Source: Candidatus Promineifilum breve (GTDB taxonomy: Bacteria > Chloroflexota > Anaerolineae > Promineifilales > Promineifilaceae). From it: 64,000 bases of DNA. The stretch is taken from NCBI RefSeq assembly GCF_900066015.1, contig NZ_LN890655.1:682001-746000 (forward strand), in the 5' to 3' direction. Each line of letters starts with the position of its first letter. Position 1 is the first letter of the stretch. Below the pieces are notes generated by a model that saw nothing but the letters and a program-made list of their open reading frames with translations, ran no database searches and was not told where the DNA came from. This document shows, in pieces, positions 21,087 through 57,557 of this stretch. The translations under genes and the position numbers were made by a program.

Positions 21087-23435
21087 AAGTCCGGACCGCC
21101 ATAGCACCCATATGGCGACGAGAGCCAGCATAAGCGCTCCGGCAGTGATTCCCCCACCCAGCAAATAGAGCCGCGGCGCGAAGCGCCACTCAACCAAGTG
21201 CTCCCCGCCCGGCACGCAGACGGCCCGTACTGATGTATAGGCGGTCAGCGCCGCCGCCGGCTGCCCATCGACCGTTACCTGCCAGCCGGGATAGGCATTC
21301 TCGGCCAGGATCAGCAACGCCGGCGCGTCGTTAAGGGTGCGAATTTGCCAGAGCGTCGGTTCGTGGCTGACGATCTCGGCCGTGCCGGGCGCGGCCGGGG
21401 CCGGGCCGAGGTCACACGGAGCCGGCGCGTCGAGGATGGCCGTCGTCGCCGGGTCGAAGTCGGCGGCATGGACGCGAGCGATGGCCGCCGCACTATCGGG
21501 GATGACCTCGGCGGCATAGACCAGGCGAGCCAGGGGCAACGGCCGCGCCCGGCTATAGACCCAGGCCGCCCCCTGCTGCCCCACCAGCGTCAGCGGCCGG
21601 TCGCCATCGGTATAGTCGTCCAGCGGCCCGCCGGCCAGCACGTGGGTCGCCCCCAGGATGTCGTAGGCCGTCGAGCGCGGGTCGGGCACCGACGCGGCCA
21701 GGGCGATGTGGGCCGCCGGCTCCAGCGAATCGTAGCCGAAGACGCTGGGCCAGCCGACCTGCATGGCCCCGTTCTGGCTGAACAGCGACACGCCCCAGGG
21801 CAGGACGCGGCCGGTCGGCTCATCGATGAGCGCCCGGCCGTCCGTCCACAGCGCTTCCGGCGCGGTGGGAGCCGTGCGGGCCATCTTGTAGGCGAACCAC
21901 CACGTATCGGCCACGACGAGCACGATGAGGGCGGTGGCGAGAAGGAAGGCGCGGCGAGTGGCGGGTGGCGAGTGGCGAGTGGCGAGTGAAGAGGCGTCTC
22001 TCCCCTGCTCCCCTGCCCCCCTGCTCCCCTGCCCCCCTGCTTCCCCGCTCATATTGATATAGGCCCAGACCAACGCCCCTCCAATACCCACCACAACCAG
22101 CGCCAACGAATAGCCGCCGATCTGATGCCACAGCCGGCCGCTGGTGTCGGTGGGGTGGACGGCCATGAACACCGCGCCGGTGGCGGCCAGCGCGGCGAAG
22201 AGGGCCACGCCGAGCACGCCCACGGCCGCCGGCCAATAGGGCCGCAGCCGGGACAGGCGCGTCTCACCCGGCATCTCCCGCCAGACGGTCAGCGTGTGGG
22301 CCAGCAGGGCCGAGGCGGCGAACAGATAGAGAAACGCCGCCCGGCCCGGCGCGCGCACCAGCCGAAACGGCGGCAGGAAGCGATAGGCCAGCTCATAGAG
22401 CACGCCATACCGGCCGAGGGCCAGTCCCAGCCCAACGACGATCAGCGCCACGTAGAACCAGGTCAGGCGCGTCGGCCGCCGCAAGGCCAGGAGGATGCCC
22501 AACACGGCCACAATGCCCGCATAATAGGTCAACTCCTCGAACGTCGGCACGCTCCAGTAGCCGACGCGCGTCGGCTCGCCGAAGAATTCGGGCACGAGCA
22601 GGGTGATCAGATGGGCCGGCGGCAGCGAGTAGTCGGTGGCGAACTCAAAGTCGGCCTCGGCCACCCGACCGGAGGCCAGGCTGAATTGCAGGAAGGGCAC
22701 GAGCTGCACCGCGGCCAGGGCCAGTCCGACGGCCGCCGCCACCAGCGCCGTCCGGGCCACGAGCCGCCGCTCGCCCGGCCGGACGAGGAACAGATAGGCG
22801 GCAAAGGCGGCCCATATCAAGCCCACGTACAGGAAGGAGGGGATGTGACCGGCCAGCAACGACAGGGCGAAGGGCACCCCGGCCAGGACGGCCGCCGCCC
22901 AGCGCCGCCGATCAATCGCCCAGGCCAGCGCCAGCAGCATGAGCGGCGTCCAGATAAACACGGCATACACCGGCTGATGCCCGGCCCACAGCCGCCCGGC
23001 CAGCAACCCGCCAAAGGCGAAGCCGATGCCCGCCAATACAGACGGCAAGCGCCGCCCGCCCATGTAGCGGGAAAACAGAAACATGCCGAACCCGGCCAGC
23101 CAGACGTGGAACAGGCTATGGAGGCTGACGCCGACGCGCACCGGCAGGATGAGGTTGATCCAGTTGGGCGGGTAGAACGTGTTTTGCTGCGGCTGGGCCA
23201 GGAAGGGGAAGCCGCCGAAGATGTTAGGTTCCCACAGTGGCAGATGACCGGCCCGCAATGCATCGCGTACCGCCTGCCAATAGATGTAGTAGTTGCCCAC
23301 CATGTCGTGCCCGGCCAATACCTGACCGTCGGGGGGCATCAACACGTGGCCGAAGAAAACCAGGCCCAACCCCAAAAACAGCAAGGCGGCCGATAACACC
23401 GGCCGGCGGTCAATCCATTCCAGTAGTCGCATCAT
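21078..23435 (-). CDS. YfhO-like multi-span membrane protein
   Basis: A 785-residue polytopic protein. The N-terminal extracytoplasmic motif GHDMVGNYYIYWQ ... GHLPLWEPN ... GGFPFLAQPQ ... FYPPNW matches the YfhO family, linked to lipoteichoic-acid/glycan glycosylation in Firmicutes and related to GT-C enzymes. About a dozen helices follow, then a soluble C-terminal domain and a final helix. Residues about 463-494 (Gly/Arg/Ser-rich) are encoded by simple repeats also known from intergenic DNA and look inserted between two helices. The start overlaps the GNAT stop by 4 bp (ATGA). It is the last gene of a three-gene membrane operon. Confidence 0.8.
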   Translation of the reverse strand: MMRLLEWIDRRPVLSAALLFLGLGLVFFGHVLMPPDGQVLAGHDMVGNYYIYWQAVRDALRAGHLPLWEPNIFGGFPFLAQPQQNTFYPPNWINLILPVRVGVSLHSLFHVWLAGFGMFLFSRYMGGRRLPSVLAGIGFAFGGLLAGRLWAGHQPVYAVFIWTPLMLLALAWAIDRRRWAAAVLAGVPFALSLLAGHIPSFLYVGLIWAAFAAYLFLVRPGERRLVARTALVAAAVGLALAAVQLVPFLQFSLASGRVAEADFEFATDYSLPPAHLITLLVPEFFGEPTRVGYWSVPTFEELTYYAGIVAVLGILLALRRPTRLTWFYVALIVVGLGLALGRYGVLYELAYRFLPPFRLVRAPGRAAFLYLFAASALLAHTLTVWREMPGETRLSRLRPYWPAAVGVLGVALFAALAATGAVFMAVHPTDTSGRLWHQIGGYSLALVVVGIGGALVWAYINMSGEAGGQGSRGAGEQGRDASSLATRHSPPATRRAFLLATALIVLVVADTWWFAYKMARTAPTAPEALWTDGRALIDEPTGRVLPWGVSLFSQNGAMQVGWPSVFGYDSLEPAAHIALAASVPDPRSTAYDILGATHVLAGGPLDDYTDGDRPLTLVGQQGAAWVYSRARPLPLARLVYAAEVIPDSAAAIARVHAADFDPATTAILDAPAPCDLGPAPAAPGTAEIVSHEPTLWQIRTLNDAPALLILAENAYPGWQVTVDGQPAAALTAYTSVRAVCVPGGEHLVEWRFAPRLYLLGGGITAGALMLALVAIWVLWRSGLNH
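21953..22050. repeat. Simple repeats inside the YfhO-like coding region
   Basis: On the plus strand GGCGAGTGGCGGGTGGCGAG and further GGCGAGT units (21953-21988) are followed by alternating CCCCTGCTCCCCTGCC units (about 22001-22040). They are in frame and encode a hydrophilic Gly/Arg/Glu/Ser segment. The two repeat types are usually found between genes. Confidence 0.8.
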
Positions 23436-51098: not shown

Positions 51099-51110
51099 AT
51101 GGAGAATAAC

Positions 51111-54100
51111 ATGCTCGTTTCTCGCCCGATCTCACTTGCCGCCAAGGCCCGCAGACGCTCGTTTCTCATCCTGGCCCTCGTTGCCGTGTTGACATTGCTG
51201 GCAGGCGCCGGCCGCGCCGTGCAGGCCGCGCCGATCACCATCACTGTTGACACTCCCAGCGACGACCCCCTGGCGCTGGATTGCAGTGATAGCCTCAGCG
51301 ACGATTGCAGCTTGCGCGGGGCGATCTTGAAGGCCAACGCCGATCCCGGCAACAGCTATACCATCGTGCTGCCGCCTGACTTCAGCACCTATGGCCTGGA
51401 CGAAGATGACGAAACCCCGGATGATCCCACCATCCGCGACCTGGACATCCTGGTCGATCTGACGATCCTGGGGGCAGGCGAGGCACAGACGGCGATTTCC
51501 GGCGAAAACGGGTCTGTGGACTACCGCGTGTTCCACATCCACGGCGGGGCCAATGTCACCCTCGCCAACCTGACCATCCGGGACGGGCAAAACGAGGACA
51601 CTGCCCTGGGCGGCGGCGGCATCCTGCACGAAGGCGCGTCCCTCATGCTCCAGAACGTGACCGTCTCGACCAATAAATCGGATCACCCCGGCGGGGGTAT
51701 CGCCAATTACGGCGGCGATTTGACCGTAACCGGTTCGACATTTTTTGGCAACGGCACCACGACAGAGAGCCTGCCGGCCATCGACGACTGTGGCGGCGGT
51801 ATCTACCAGGATGTTACGGCCGGCGTCCTGACCATCACCACCAGCGAATTTACGAATAACGTCAGCCCGTGGGGCGGCGGCGCGGTCTGTTCTTACGGCG
51901 AAACCACCGTCCAATTTAGTACCTTTACCGGCAACGACGGCGGCGAAGGCGGCGGCGCGCTCTACATTTCCGGATCGCCGGCCACGGTCAGCGCCAACAC
52001 CTTCATCAACAACACCGCCGCGTCAGGCGGGGCCATCCATAGCAACAGCCCCGATCTGACCGTCGTCAACAGCACCTTCTACGTCAATACAGCCAACAAC
52101 GCCGCCGGGGTGGACGCTCGGGCGGGTGTGACCAACGTGGTCAATAGCACCTTTGCCGATAACGACGCCAGCGGCGTCGGTGGCGCCTTCCAGGAGCAAA
52201 ACTGCTGTGGGGCCGTCCTGACAGTGACAAACTCCATCATCGATGGGGTCAGCGGCGAGAACACCTGCTCCGGTGGCTTTGCCGATGGCGGCGGCAACGT
52301 TGTCCACGAGGCCAACGGTTGCACCGGCACGGCCGCCAACCCGGTATTGCAGCCCTTGGCCGACAACGGCGGGCCGACCCTGACCATGGCTCTCGGCGAG
52401 GGCAGCGGGGCGTTCGGTGCGGCCGTGTTGGCCTTCTGCCCGCCCACCGATCAGCGCGGCGTGGCCCGCCCCGATCCCTACACCGACCCCACGTGCGATA
52501 GCGGCGCCTACGAGAGCGGCGAATCGAGCACCTCCACGCCCGTGGCCGTCGGCGATACGGCCACCGTGCCTTCTGGGGGCACGGTCACCATCCTGGAAAA
52601 CGGCTCAACCTCGGTGCTGACCAACGATACCGACAACGAGTTGGATCCGCTGACGGCCGAGTTGGTTAGCGGCCCGACGAATGCCGCGGCCTTCTACCTA
52701 AACGCGGATGGCACGTTCGGCTATACCCACGACGGCACGGAGATGATCGCCGATACGTTCACCTACCGGGCGTGTGACAGCCTGGATTGCTCCGCCCCGG
52801 CCACAGTGCGCATCGTGCTGGAAAACAACGTCCGCAACGATGCCATCACCATCCCCACCACGTCGCCCACCACGGATACGGCCGTCAACCCGACCGATCC
52901 CAACTGGTACCGCTTCGACGTGGACGATCCCGGCTCAAAGATCGTGGTCACGCTGGACAGCGATTACGATTACGACCTGTATTTGTTCGCGCCGGGCATC
53001 AATGAAGAAGACGGCACCGTGCGCGATCTGGCCCAGATGACCGACATCGCCCAACTGGTCGACATCGCCCAATTGGTGGACATCGCCCAATTGGTGGACA
53101 TCGCCCAGATCACCGACATCGCCCAGATCACCGACATCGCTCTCCTGGCTAACATGGGCGATCTGATCGACATCGCTCAACTGGACGCGCTCGCCCAACT
53201 GGTCGACATCGCCCAGATCACCGACATCGCCCAGATCACCGACATCGCCCAGATGACCGACATCGCCCGCGACAACGTGGACGGTACGCTGGTCGGCCTG
53301 TCGATCAAGAGCGGCCCAGCGAATGTGACCGGCAACGAGCGCATCGAGCACGAGATCCACGAACTGGCCGGCCCCTACTTCCTGGGCGTCATCGCCCACG
53401 ACGAGACGGCCGTCGGCCAGCCCTTCACGCTGGAAGTGGACATCACCCTCGAAGAACCCTTGCCCACCAACCCGATCAAACCGGTGGGCGACTTCGACCA
53501 ACCGGCCACCGATACGAATGTAGAGACCATCATCCTGACCAACAAGGCGCGGTTCGTCGACCAGTATTCGCAGGAAGAAGCCGACGACATGATGGCCGCG
53601 CTGGAGTTGCTGGCCGACGAGCCGACGGTCAACGGCGTGGTCGTCGATTTGGACACGGTGCAGAATCCGCAAGGCCAGTTCATCATGCGCGGCATTTACG
53701 CCGCCTGGAACGAGAATACCCCCGCCGAGCTGGGCAACCCGCAGACGGCCAACCGCGTGGCCCAATCGATCAAGCAATACATCTACGACATCCTGCCGGC
53801 CTACCCCAACGCCAAGTACATCGTTCTGGCCGGCAACGACGAGATCGTCCCCCACCGGCGGATGATCGATAGCACCCTGGTCGCTAACCAGCGGCGCTAC
53901 GTTGTGGCCGACGACCCGGCCATCGCAGCGGCCTATGAGAATCGCTACTACCTGACGGATGATTATTACGCCGCCGTGCTGCCCTACAGCGCCTTCGGCC
54001 GCGAGCTATACCTGCCGCAATACGCCATCGGCCGCCTCGTCGAGTCGCCGGCCGAGATTCAGAACATCATCGACGTCTATCGCAACGGCCATGAGACCAT

Positions 54101-57100
54101 CGCGCCACAGAACGCGCTGGTCACCGGCTACGACTTCCTGATCGATCAGGCCAACGCCGTCGCCGCCGAACTGGACGCGCGCGGGGTGGATAACCAGACC
54201 AACTTGATCGACAACAACTGGCGCGGCTGGGATTTCCGCGACGTGGCCTTTGGCCCCACCAACTTTGATCTGATCTCGCTGAACTCCCATTTCGACCATC
54301 GCCTGTTCTTCCCCAACGGCTCGCCCACCGAGCAGCAAGGCGGCGAACCCAACCTGGTCTTTGCCGACGAACTGGACAACGCCGCCAACGATTTCACCGG
54401 CGCGCTGGTGTTCTCGGTCGGCTGCCAATCGGGATTGAACGTCAGCGACCGCTGGTACAACCCCGGCGACCCCTTCACCGGGGCCGACTGGGCGCAGATG
54501 TTCGCCGGCGAAGGCGCGACCTTCATCGGTAACACCGGCTTCGGCTACGGCGATGCCGACCTGCTGGCCTATTCGGAGAAGCTCATCCTCAACTTCGTCG
54601 GCCATCTGGGCTATAACCCCACGGGCACGGCCGCGGGCAATCCGACCGTCGGCGGCTCCCTGCTGGAGGCCAAGCAGCAATACTTCAACAGCCTGGCCGC
54701 CGGCACCTTGAGCGTCTACGACGAAAAGGTCATGGCCGAGATGACGCTCTACGGCCTGCCGATGCAAAAGGTGGAACTGCCCGATCAAACGAACGTTGAT
54801 CCGGCGGGCACACCGGCGGGTATGGTCGCGCCGACCACCGCCGAAGCAGTGCCGGCCGCCGCGCCAAGCGCCGACGGTCTCATCCCCGCCGCGCCGGTGC
54901 CCGGTCTGGAGCAAACGCCGCTCAACCTGAACTTCGCCTACACCCTCCACCCCACGACGCGCGGCGGCTACTACCAGATCACCGGCGAGACGGATCTATT
55001 CCACACCGCCGAGCGGCCGATCCTGCCCCTGACGACGGTCGATCGCTCGCGGCCCGACAAGGTGACGCGCGGTGTCCTGATGCTGGGCGGCGCATTCGAT
55101 GACATCCCCAATTTCGACCCGACGATCATGGGGCTGCTCTTCGAGGATAGCGAGGAAATCGCCGGCGAACTGCGCCATGACGTGCCTCAATGGCTGCCGT
55201 TCATGCCGGCCACGATCAACCGCTTCTGGGACGTGGGCGAGGACACCTACTCGCAGAACGTGGTCGTCACGCCGGGCCAGTTCCGGGCCACCTCGACCTC
55301 GGCCGATCCCAAGACGGTGGGCATCATGCGCCTGTACAGCGCGTTGAACCTGCTGGTCTACGAAGCCCCCGGCGAACAACCGGATTACAAGGCCCCCGGC
55401 GTCTGGCAAATCGCGGCCACCCCCGGCCCGGGCCTGTCCCTGACTTTCAGCGCCCTGGTGACCGACACGCCGGCCACCGACTTTCTGCCGGCCAGCGGCG
55501 TCATGCGCGTCGTCGTCCTCTATCGCCGCCTGAGCACCGAAAGCTGGTCGCGCGCCGAGTTGACCTACAACGAAGTCAGCCAGATCGCCCTCAAGTCGGT
55601 GGGGCTGCCGCAGGGGGGCGATTACGAATACTTCGTCCAGGCGGTCGATAACGCCGGCAACGTGAACCCGGTGCTCGACCACGGCAACTTCTTCCAGATC
55701 AACGTGCCCAACATCGAACCGGAAGAGCGGACGGTCTACCTCTCGGCCCGCGCCGCGGGTTCGGTCGGTGGGGTCGCCTACGACACCCGCGACATTCTGG
55801 CCTACGATCCGGCGACCGACGACTGGTCGATCTACTTCGACGGTAACGACGTTGGGCTGACCGGCAACCTGGCCGCGTTTTCGCTGCTCGATGACGGCAC
55901 CATCCTGCTGTCGCCGCAAATCCGCTTCCAGGCCCCCGTCGTCGGCTGGGTCGAGCCGCAGGACATCGTGCGCTTCTCGCCCACCTCGCTCGGCGCGACC
56001 ACGGCCGGCGGCTATACGGTGTTCCTCGACGGCTCCGACGTGGGGTTGACGCTGGCGAACGAGGCCATCAACGGCATCAGTTTCACGCCCGCCGGCCGGC
56101 TGGTCATCAGCACCTTCGGCGGGGCCACCGTGCCCGGCCAGGGCGGCCAAACGTTGAACGCCGGCGGCGACATGATGTTGCTGTTCCAGCCCAACACGCT
56201 GGGGACGGGCAGCAGCGGCTATTGGGAACCCTATCTGGACGGCAGCGCCATCGGTCTGACGGCCAATCGCATCGCCGCGCAATGGATCGACCCGACGACT
56301 GGCGACGTCTACTTCACGCCGCGCTCCAACGTGACCATCGACGGCCATACCTATCGCATGGGCGACATCGTCCATTGCACGCCGCTGGACGCCGGCCCCA
56401 TCAGCGCCTGCGCCCTGACCGTCCACTGGACCGCGCCTGGCCTGAATATCGAGAGCATGGATTTGGGCCAGCCATTGCCGTTCGAGCCGCCGGCCGGCAG
56501 CATCACCATCATCAAGCAGGTCACCAGCGGCAGCGGGGCGTTCAATTTCAACGGCGACCTGGGCAACTTCTCGCTGGTCGTCCCCGGCGGGGCCAGCCAG
56601 ACGTTTGACGAATTGGAGACCGGTGCCTATCTGGTGCGCGAACTGACGCCCACCGGCTGGCTGGTGAGCGGCATTAGCTGCGATGATGCCGACGGCGGCA
56701 CGGCGGTCGTGGCCGATAATGAAGTGATGATTGATCTCGACGCGGGCCAGGCCATCACCTGTACCTTTACCAACGCGCCGGAGACCGCGCCGACCGAAGA
56801 CACCGTCTACGTCAACGTCGCTCAGGCGGGCAGCGTCGGCGGCGTGGCCTACGACGCGGCCGACATCCTGCGCTATACGCCCGCCGGCCAGTGGCAACTG
56901 TTCTTCGACGGCTCGGACGTGGGTCTGGGCGTGGCCGGAATCAAGGCCTTCACGTTGCTGTCCGACAACAGCATCCTGCTCAGCGTCGCCAAGCCGGTCG
57001 AAATGGCCGGTCTGGGCCGCATCGGGCTGGAGGACGTGCTGCGCTTCATTCCCACCAGCACGGGCACGACCACCGCCGGCACGTTCCAACTGTACTTCGA

Positions 57101-57557
57101 CGGCTCGGACGTGTCGCTGACGGCCAAATCGGAAGCGATTGACGCGCTGACCATTGGTCCCGGCGGCAAGCTGATCATCAGTACAACGGGCAAGGTGACG
57201 ATCAAGCCGCCATCGGGCAATCTGAAGGCCAGGAACAGCGATCTGTTGGCCTTCACCTTCGGCACGACGGGCAGCTCGACCTCCGGCACGTGGTCGCTCT
57301 ACTTCGAGGGTGCCGACGTGGGCCTGAAGAAGGAGAACGTCGACGCGCTGTGGATCGACCCGCTGAACGGCGACATCTACCTGTCCGTGACCAACGCCTA
57401 CAATCTGGGCAATGGCGTGAGCGGCGACGAGAGCGCCATCTTCATCTGCGACCCCGGCAGTCTGGGGGCCACGACGACCTGCGCCTATCGGGCCTATTGG
57501 GACGCGGCCGCCGCCGGGTTGGACGCGAATATCAGAGGCATCTACATCCAGCGCTAG
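51111..57557 (+). CDS. Giant secreted multidomain protein with gingipain-like (C25) peptidase domain
   Basis: A 2148-residue protein. A signal peptide (about 1-40) is followed by a right-handed beta-helix region with CSLRGAI-like motif (about 60-460), a cadherin/VCBS-like repeat (about 480-570), a PPC-like domain (590-790) interrupted by 14 DIAQ-type hexapeptides (639-720), then a C25-like domain with NDEIVPHRR, His1060 in NSHFDH and Cys1105 in VGCQSG. C-terminal parts are an Ig-like beta domain, two copies of a DGSDVGLT-containing domain, and a SpaA-like fold before the last copy. GGAG supports ATG at 51111. No sorting signal is seen. It is probably an exported adhesin/peptidase. Confidence 0.85.
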   Translation: MLVSRPISLAAKARRRSFLILALVAVLTLLAGAGRAVQAAPITITVDTPSDDPLALDCSDSLSDDCSLRGAILKANADPGNSYTIVLPPDFSTYGLDEDDETPDDPTIRDLDILVDLTILGAGEAQTAISGENGSVDYRVFHIHGGANVTLANLTIRDGQNEDTALGGGGILHEGASLMLQNVTVSTNKSDHPGGGIANYGGDLTVTGSTFFGNGTTTESLPAIDDCGGGIYQDVTAGVLTITTSEFTNNVSPWGGGAVCSYGETTVQFSTFTGNDGGEGGGALYISGSPATVSANTFINNTAASGGAIHSNSPDLTVVNSTFYVNTANNAAGVDARAGVTNVVNSTFADNDASGVGGAFQEQNCCGAVLTVTNSIIDGVSGENTCSGGFADGGGNVVHEANGCTGTAANPVLQPLADNGGPTLTMALGEGSGAFGAAVLAFCPPTDQRGVARPDPYTDPTCDSGAYESGESSTSTPVAVGDTATVPSGGTVTILENGSTSVLTNDTDNELDPLTAELVSGPTNAAAFYLNADGTFGYTHDGTEMIADTFTYRACDSLDCSAPATVRIVLENNVRNDAITIPTTSPTTDTAVNPTDPNWYRFDVDDPGSKIVVTLDSDYDYDLYLFAPGINEEDGTVRDLAQMTDIAQLVDIAQLVDIAQLVDIAQITDIAQITDIALLANMGDLIDIAQLDALAQLVDIAQITDIAQITDIAQMTDIARDNVDGTLVGLSIKSGPANVTGNERIEHEIHELAGPYFLGVIAHDETAVGQPFTLEVDITLEEPLPTNPIKPVGDFDQPATDTNVETIILTNKARFVDQYSQEEADDMMAALELLADEPTVNGVVVDLDTVQNPQGQFIMRGIYAAWNENTPAELGNPQTANRVAQSIKQYIYDILPAYPNAKYIVLAGNDEIVPHRRMIDSTLVANQRRYVVADDPAIAAAYENRYYLTDDYYAAVLPYSAFGRELYLPQYAIGRLVESPAEIQNIIDVYRNGHETIAPQNALVTGYDFLIDQANAVAAELDARGVDNQTNLIDNNWRGWDFRDVAFGPTNFDLISLNSHFDHRLFFPNGSPTEQQGGEPNLVFADELDNAANDFTGALVFSVGCQSGLNVSDRWYNPGDPFTGADWAQMFAGEGATFIGNTGFGYGDADLLAYSEKLILNFVGHLGYNPTGTAAGNPTVGGSLLEAKQQYFNSLAAGTLSVYDEKVMAEMTLYGLPMQKVELPDQTNVDPAGTPAGMVAPTTAEAVPAAAPSADGLIPAAPVPGLEQTPLNLNFAYTLHPTTRGGYYQITGETDLFHTAERPILPLTTVDRSRPDKVTRGVLMLGGAFDDIPNFDPTIMGLLFEDSEEIAGELRHDVPQWLPFMPATINRFWDVGEDTYSQNVVVTPGQFRATSTSADPKTVGIMRLYSALNLLVYEAPGEQPDYKAPGVWQIAATPGPGLSLTFSALVTDTPATDFLPASGVMRVVVLYRRLSTESWSRAELTYNEVSQIALKSVGLPQGGDYEYFVQAVDNAGNVNPVLDHGNFFQINVPNIEPEERTVYLSARAAGSVGGVAYDTRDILAYDPATDDWSIYFDGNDVGLTGNLAAFSLLDDGTILLSPQIRFQAPVVGWVEPQDIVRFSPTSLGATTAGGYTVFLDGSDVGLTLANEAINGISFTPAGRLVISTFGGATVPGQGGQTLNAGGDMMLLFQPNTLGTGSSGYWEPYLDGSAIGLTANRIAAQWIDPTTGDVYFTPRSNVTIDGHTYRMGDIVHCTPLDAGPISACALTVHWTAPGLNIESMDLGQPLPFEPPAGSITIIKQVTSGSGAFNFNGDLGNFSLVVPGGASQTFDELETGAYLVRELTPTGWLVSGISCDDADGGTAVVADNEVMIDLDAGQAITCTFTNAPETAPTEDTVYVNVAQAGSVGGVAYDAADILRYTPAGQWQLFFDGSDVGLGVAGIKAFTLLSDNSILLSVAKPVEMAGLGRIGLEDVLRFIPTSTGTTTAGTFQLYFDGSDVSLTAKSEAIDALTIGPGGKLIISTTGKVTIKPPSGNLKARNSDLLAFTFGTTGSSTSGTWSLYFEGADVGLKKENVDALWIDPLNGDIYLSVTNAYNLGNGVSGDESAIFICDPGSLGATTTCAYRAYWDAAAAGLDANIRGIYIQR
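53025..53270 (+). repeat. DIAQ hexapeptide (18-bp) tandem repeat inside the C25 gene
   Basis: Fourteen in-frame 18-bp units (13 complete plus a partial) with consensus GACATCGCCCAGATCACC, encoding D-I-A-Q-[L/I/M]-[V/T]. The middle units vary (DIALLA, NMGDLI, DALAQL). Neighbouring third positions differ (CAACTGGTC, CAATTGGTG), so it is not a recent slippage product. It splits a PPC-like domain. Confidence 0.92.

Follow-up and report, generated by a model that had tools for sequence, protein, structure and literature searches.

In one clade of secreted C25 peptidases of Chloroflexota, most members carry arrays of short tandem repeats at a constant place, the hairpin of a PPC domain, while the repeated word, its length (5, 6, or 7 residues) and, between clades, its copy number vary. 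Within an array, the amino-acid sequence of the units is kept almost the same, and their codons drift apart. The reading that we prefer, and hold tentatively, is that the array, rewritten by unequal exchange and kept uniform by selection, may give the secreted peptidase a multivalent and species-specific arm for recognition or assembly.

The array of the window and its host protein

The window, i.e., the whole stretch of 64,000 nucleotides analyzed here, has one such array, within a large multidomain protein. The features are given in window coordinates:

51099..57557, + strand: gene of a secreted multidomain C25 protein of 2152 aa (open reading frame; Pfam and NCBIfam domains)
52338..52517, + strand: choice-of-anchor Q domain, the end of the N-terminal beta-helix-like part (NCBIfam NF041518, E 4e-18, residues 414-473)
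52536..52814, + strand: Big_9 Ig-like domain (PF17963, E 4e-11, residues 480-572)
52869..53012, + strand: first part of the PPC domain, strands to YDLYLFAPG and linker (profile positions 3-34 of 70; AlphaFold2 pLDDT 82-88)
53013..53276, + strand: tandem hexapeptide array; GTVRDL (53013-53030) is the first unit in G phase, then come 14 units
53025-53276, + strand: the same array in the phase of the initial annotation, 14 units
53133..53204, + strand: central divergent units DIALLA NMGDLI DIAQLD ALAQLV, counterpart of the NIG[ED]LLDL element of relatives
53283..53303, + strand: GTLVGLS, the PPC beta strand after the array (AlphaFold2 strand 166-171 of the segment)
53304..53450, + strand: last part of the PPC domain (AlphaFold2 strands; Foldseek of a homologous model to 3jqw)
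53520..54770, + strand: peptidase C25 domain, scanned alone (PF01364, E 5e-10, 39.6 bits for a cut-off of 23)
54288-54290, + strand: conserved C25 His1064 (LNSHF)
54423-54425, + strand: conserved C25 Cys1109 (VGCQSG)
56502..56777, + strand: SpaA_4 prealbumin-like domain (PF24514, E 3e-14, residues 1802-1893)

No other tandem repeat of the window comes close in strength to the 18-bp one at 53031-53268 (TRF, 13.2 copies, score 171), which is in frame with the 2152-aa open reading frame. From 53025 its units read DLAQMT, DIAQLV (three times), DIAQIT (twice), DIALLA, and NMGDLI, followed by DIAQLD, ALAQLV, DIAQIT (twice), DIAQMT, and DIARDN. TRF and this reading of the units bear out the initial annotation, which had described a 14-unit hexapeptide array with degenerate units in its middle; in many relatives the corresponding NIG[ED]LLDL element comes after 5-8 units. 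The residue numbers given there, 639-720, fit an ATG four codons downstream, and counting from the first ATG gives 643-724. Units 5, 6, 11, and 12 are identical in DNA (GACATCGCCCAGATCACC), and the codons of identical residues differ in 15% of unit pairs, against a median of 45% in related arrays. This contradicts the claim, drawn from codon variation, that the array is not a recent expansion: it was exchanged or expanded recently. It is also among the least uniform arrays, with a pN/pS of 0.61 and 3 consensus units among the 13 counted, and, being a mixture of three variants (LV, IT, MT), looks caught between words. On the minus strand, a 306-aa open frame at 52935-53855 itself reads as hexapeptide repeats (GDVGDL) and is a by-product of the 18-bp period. 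Elsewhere in the window, two short tandem repeats lie close together at 21953-22050, GGCGAGT five times and CTCCCCTG six times.

The assignment of the host to the C25 peptidases, made earlier from the letters, holds: the Pfam model matches the window (E 5e-10) and 11 of the 20 members scanned, and the catalytic His and Cys are kept in 21 of 21 members, with a Phe adjoining the His. The array splits a PPC domain, as had been proposed, since the Pfam match reaches no further than position 34 of the 70 profile positions, ending directly before it, and the PPC domain of ColH/ColG is matched both in a PDB profile search and by Foldseek, where the model of a relative with six GRISAI units (L122) retrieves 3jqw, the collagen-binding domain of ColH (E 1.3e-6, TM 0.77 by target). 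The window alone is under the cut-off of PF04151 (E 0.015); matches at E <= 0.1 are found in 12 of 18 members of alignment A1 and 12 of 14 of alignment A4, and two members exceed the cut-off of 25.9 bits, L035 (1.2e-7, 33 bits) and L122 (1.5e-5, 26.2 bits).

We carried out the structure prediction that the initial annotation had suggested, with AlphaFold2. The PPC domain folds confidently, with pLDDT 82-88 on its strands in the window segment (18 sequences) and 87-93 in L122 (14 sequences). The array takes no confident fold (32-37 and 29-45, respectively), a low pLDDT that on repeats may be a failure of the predictor and is not proof of disorder. With that reservation, this is the outcome that the initial annotation had named as refuting its reading, a prediction of disorder with no fold. 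In the L122 model, the last unit continues into the PPC strand at 119-123, and outside the last unit neither model has strands in the array. Alignments agree that in compact relatives the last repeat unit is itself the PPC strand equivalent to GTLVGLS, and in many members this strand is the last unit plus Ser (GRISAI-S, GTLVAI-S, GGQITSI-S).

A constant place and a changing word

The array region is present in 17 of 59 related genomes searched. Once aligned, the first relatives had words as different as DIAQLS, DIAQLT, NIGQMS, NIGQIS, GRLNNI, GQIGNI, GQMINI, and AQLTGI, all at the same place. A profile of the array gave matches in 47 of 396 genomes of the class, a few of them unrelated. To avoid selecting for arrays, we also searched by the C25 domain alone (alignment A5), which was found in 99 of the 396 genomes. 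The region upstream of the domain was read for 121 genes and held 77 automatically detected arrays (53 of period 6 and 24 of period 5), a count that leaves out two proline-threonine linkers. Further arrays were found by hand in L117 and L182, and short or irregular ones in L138, L150, L200, L204, L236, L237, and L246. Among these upstream regions, those with another kind of domain before C25 had no arrays. Pentad words include PLQNV, PLQNI, SPDAF, SPEAF, LPSGS, GRSSV, and GRMAS, and GRISAI and GGWASI add to the hexads. Excluding the window array, 76 arrays have 54 distinct words (up to rotation).

When 301 genomes of the phylum were searched, array words also turned up in other classes (GNLNAI, the heptads GGQITSI and GGQIASI, LPGTY, SPDAY, SPWNS, and GAPRAK), including in genomes of one to three contigs, so the arrays are not an assembly artefact. 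The unit is of 5 or 6 residues, and of 7 in another class. Most of the genomes are metagenome-assembled, which makes an assembly bias likely: arrays whose units are identical in DNA drop out when short reads are assembled, and these genomes are thus biased towards codon-diverse arrays. Such diversity is nonetheless found in the one-contig genome G241 too, where LPSGS occurs 22 times in 21 DNA versions. As read in alignments and loci across Chloroflexota, the array-bearing relatives have it at the same PPC site. The check proposed at first, whether a DIAQ pattern always interrupts PPC domains in Chloroflexota proteins, bears out the site among C25 proteins and not the pattern, as what is conserved is not DIAQ. 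L153 and L157, PPC domains from other proteins of Anaerolineae, have no array and run through without an insert.

A tree of 93 C25 domains places the array genes in one clade of 81 rows (support 99/96) with 73 regular arrays, and the remaining 12 rows are array-less but for one (PIHWNT). Eight rows within the clade were scored as having none, some of which are misses of the strict script, such as L179, with an AQLGDI array, and L138 and L293, with few units. Arrays are thus retained in most of this clade, across many families. Pentads occur at three separate places in the tree, and GRSSV/GRMAS is nested among hexads with starred support.

Several matches and candidates were set aside. The word is not a code of the whole genome, since the C25 genes of one genome differ in word (GRLNNI and GGWASI in G217) and the window's own genome has the array once. 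Matches outside C25, among them L086, L088, L104-L109, L120, and L121, are unrelated low-complexity frames; the minus-strand matches and the two proline-threonine linkers of the census are artefacts; and the plasmid search gave a single match, of low complexity. A few loci are unusual. In the same PPC loop, L019 (G015:C700) has imperfectly repeated NPYDLS/NAYDLA hexads, whose chemistry sets them apart from the remaining hexads. L313 (G658) has three copies of a ten-residue unit, PMWTWEMWTF, very rich in Trp and Met, in the corresponding loop. L236 and L237 (G301 and G324), of the SPDAF clade, have mixed arrays of two interleaved words (about 5 residues, and ten with RGART or RGSRAP), possibly a transitional state. 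Finally, about 3 kb downstream of a C25-linked GNLSSI array, a 123-aa open reading frame (L097/L161, G158:C393:20134-20370) is made of a signal peptide and only 13 GT[IL]NSI hexapeptides, and is possibly a stand-alone secreted repeat protein.

Uniform units, diverged codons, and the change of array DNA

Across the 77 arrays, 738 of 870 units exactly match the consensus of their own array. Between units, the median pS is 0.62 and the median pN 0.054 (ratio 0.09), which for short repeated units is a rough measure, taken over pairs that are not independent within one array, and one that confounds selection with time since exchange. Codon differences at identical residues reach 85% of those in random draws from the same gene, and several arrays have 14-19 exact units at a pS of 0.5-0.97. 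Neighboring units are weakly more dissimilar in codons (0.87 of the expectation for adjacent units vs 0.85 for all; 44 vs 31 arrays), a signal too weak for us to retain selection for such dissimilarity.

Between close relatives, the word can change across the whole array, as in GRLNNI/GRLSNI (flank identity 87%), PDAFS/PEAFS (79%), GNLGSI/GNLSSI (77%), and GRISAI/GRISSI (68%). The number of units is often unchanged despite the word: there are 19 units of PEAFS or PDAFS in L226, L228, L229, L233, and L235 (L218 has 19 in-phase units, 18 of them exact), 6 in GRISAI, GRISSI, GRIGAI, GMISAI, and GQMGVI arrays, and 8 in GNLGSI, GNLSSI, and GNLGAI arrays. It is not fixed everywhere, as close relatives have 9 vs 18-19 units of PDAFS and 6 vs 8 of GNLNAI.

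Some arrays have the same DNA throughout: a single 18-mer makes up all eight GNLNAI units of L304 and all six of L305, and in their close relative L303 (flank identity 94-95%) the units have already diverged, in blocks of two and three. Higher-order repeats are also found, with two unit types alternating in L298 and L319 and three cycling in L317. The order of units is non-random (p <= 0.05) in 13 of 91 arrays, a set that counts one gene twice (L241 = L310), and 9 of these 13 are best at a lag of 2 or more. Such identical units, higher-order blocks, and non-random order form a pattern as from unequal exchange of unit blocks, and these comparisons of sequences support the view that unequal exchange, involving one or several units of 15-21 bp, rewrites the arrays. 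The arrays do not slip constantly, since L173 and L175 (flank identity 93%) have kept their register, with a third-position identity of 92% in register vs 53% when permuted. Parallel point mutation of every unit in register was considered for the changes of word and found no support: the changed-word pairs have no clear third-position register, although their flanks are also much diverged.

Possible functions and comparison with known systems

The constant place, the selected uniformity, the often-kept number, and the free change of word together suggest that the units share one job and that the word is exchangeable between lineages. In the mechanism that we propose, unequal exchange would let one mutated word displace the old word across the whole array, and purifying selection would then purge amino-acid changes and spare synonymous ones. 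The selected property would be the sameness and the number of the units, each doing the same job. We propose an extended arm, exposed on the PPC domain. It would bind a repetitive partner (a cell surface, a substrate, or its own copies) and hold or direct the secreted peptidase there, and a shift of partner or of specificity need between lineages would drive the change of word.

The initial annotation had put forward a spacer or a ligand-binding cap; either may apply, with a plain spacer made less likely by a uniformity that is under selection. We consider it unlikely that an insert-tolerant loop grows near-neutrally by slippage into a flexible spacer, in which units are alike from recent copying and nothing but length and solubility counts: copying by itself would leave the units alike in DNA as well, which does not fit a pS of 0.62 with a pN of 0.05, nor does it fit the retention of arrays in most of the 81-gene clade. 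The low AlphaFold2 confidence, the DNA-identical arrays of L304 and L305, and the three variants mixed in the window agree with such a spacer, as does the reported statistical enrichment of tandem repeats in disorder (PMC7230257). The uniformity and the conserved number would also suit a regular folded solenoid, a rigid cap or spacer built as a beta-helix, left-handed or other, in which each unit would be one of the stacked coils and the ladders need identical residues. Hexad words often fit [LIV]-[GAED]-x-x-[STAV]-x, and there is a weak PDB profile match to LpxA (E 0.0067). Yet units of 5, 6, and 7 residues occupy one site, with pentad clades lying among hexads in the tree, the counts of units are multiples of neither 3 nor 2, the array pLDDT is 29-45 in two lineages, and the Pfam hexapeptide model PF00132 matches 1 of 14 members (E 0.062) and none of the 18 in alignment A1. 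The beta-solenoid or left-handed helix anticipated at first is not borne out by the models and the unit lengths; we rejected it as the main reading on these grounds and regard it as quite unlikely. A helical hairpin, suggested by a symmetric 6+1+6 or 7+1+7 arrangement around NIG[ED]LLDL, was likewise dropped, as the layout is strongly asymmetric in L044 and L045 and the central units are absent from several arrays.

Units are the same within a gene and different between genes, and most words keep one position hydrophobic. This is also consistent with self-assembly, in which identical units of different molecules would pair homotypically, in the manner of amyloid or elastin, and concentrate the peptidase in a surface layer or a matrix. 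The stand-alone 123-aa repeat protein near a C25 array gene might join such a layer; its word is unlike the GNLSSI of the neighboring array, and it is the single such case seen, which leaves this explanation improbable. The constant linkage with a C25 domain of intact His and Cys (21 of 21) might point to an element directed at the peptidase itself, a pseudo-substrate or cleavage ruler whose units are uniform so as to be equally cut or equally resistant. The words share no P1-like residue (R, Q, W, D, N, P, and others occur) and differ within one genome (G217), and we deem this account very improbable. A long shot of another kind follows from the last unit being a PPC strand, as the array is then a long series of copies of a single strand. 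The slot in the PPC sheet could perhaps be filled by any of them, or any of them could insert into a neighboring PPC by donor-strand exchange; if true, the domain would shift register or form chains, which would explain why all copies have to match and how the word can change together with the PPC core of its own protein.

The recognition or assembly arm that we favor can be set beside several known systems. In the literature searched, no paper had any of six pairs of array words and none joined PPC, tandem repeats, and Chloroflexi, and the arrays seem not to have been described before. The host domain has the fold of PPC (PF04151) and of the clostridial collagenase collagen-binding domains (3jqw, 1nqd), which have an ordinary hairpin at the array site. 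The downstream catalytic domain is that of peptidase C25 (gingipain family, PF01364), with conserved His and Cys; a C25 sequence profile found no chain in the PDB. To our knowledge, no such array occurs in the known C25 members. In clan CD, the catalytic His is followed by Gly, unlike the family of the window, where it is followed by Phe. The hexad words resemble the motif of the left-handed beta-helix (PF00132/LpxA), whereas the unit length here is not fixed at 6 and no such fold is predicted. Some arrays score with collagen (PF01391), and GQIGNI has Gly at every third residue, but most words do not follow the Gly-X-Y rule. DIAQLS resembles the LED repeat (PF20854), with scores (best 46.4 bits, in L044; 18.6 in the window) under the cut-off of 59.

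The closest parallel in evolutionary pattern is the rotifer mate recognition protein mmr-b, whose near-identical tandem repeats resemble each other more in one gene copy than across lineages, a concerted evolution tied to species recognition (PMC3495898). The units of C25 arrays are, in the same way, more alike within a gene than between genes. The mmr-b repeats are eukaryotic and make up the whole protein (PMC3495898), whereas here words of 5-7 residues sit in a loop, and the recognition role shown for mmr-b (PMC3495898) is for the C25 arrays only a guess. The C25 arrays form a natural series, with dozens of homologues that vary in word, unit length, and age and share a fixed site beside a peptidase. 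In this series, whole-repeat rewriting can be measured, and word swaps can test whether the word determines specificity. They are also a hard and well-controlled set of short repeats for structure prediction. If the words are a recognition code, bacteria would have in these arrays a surface element that diversifies rapidly and lies outside the known systems.
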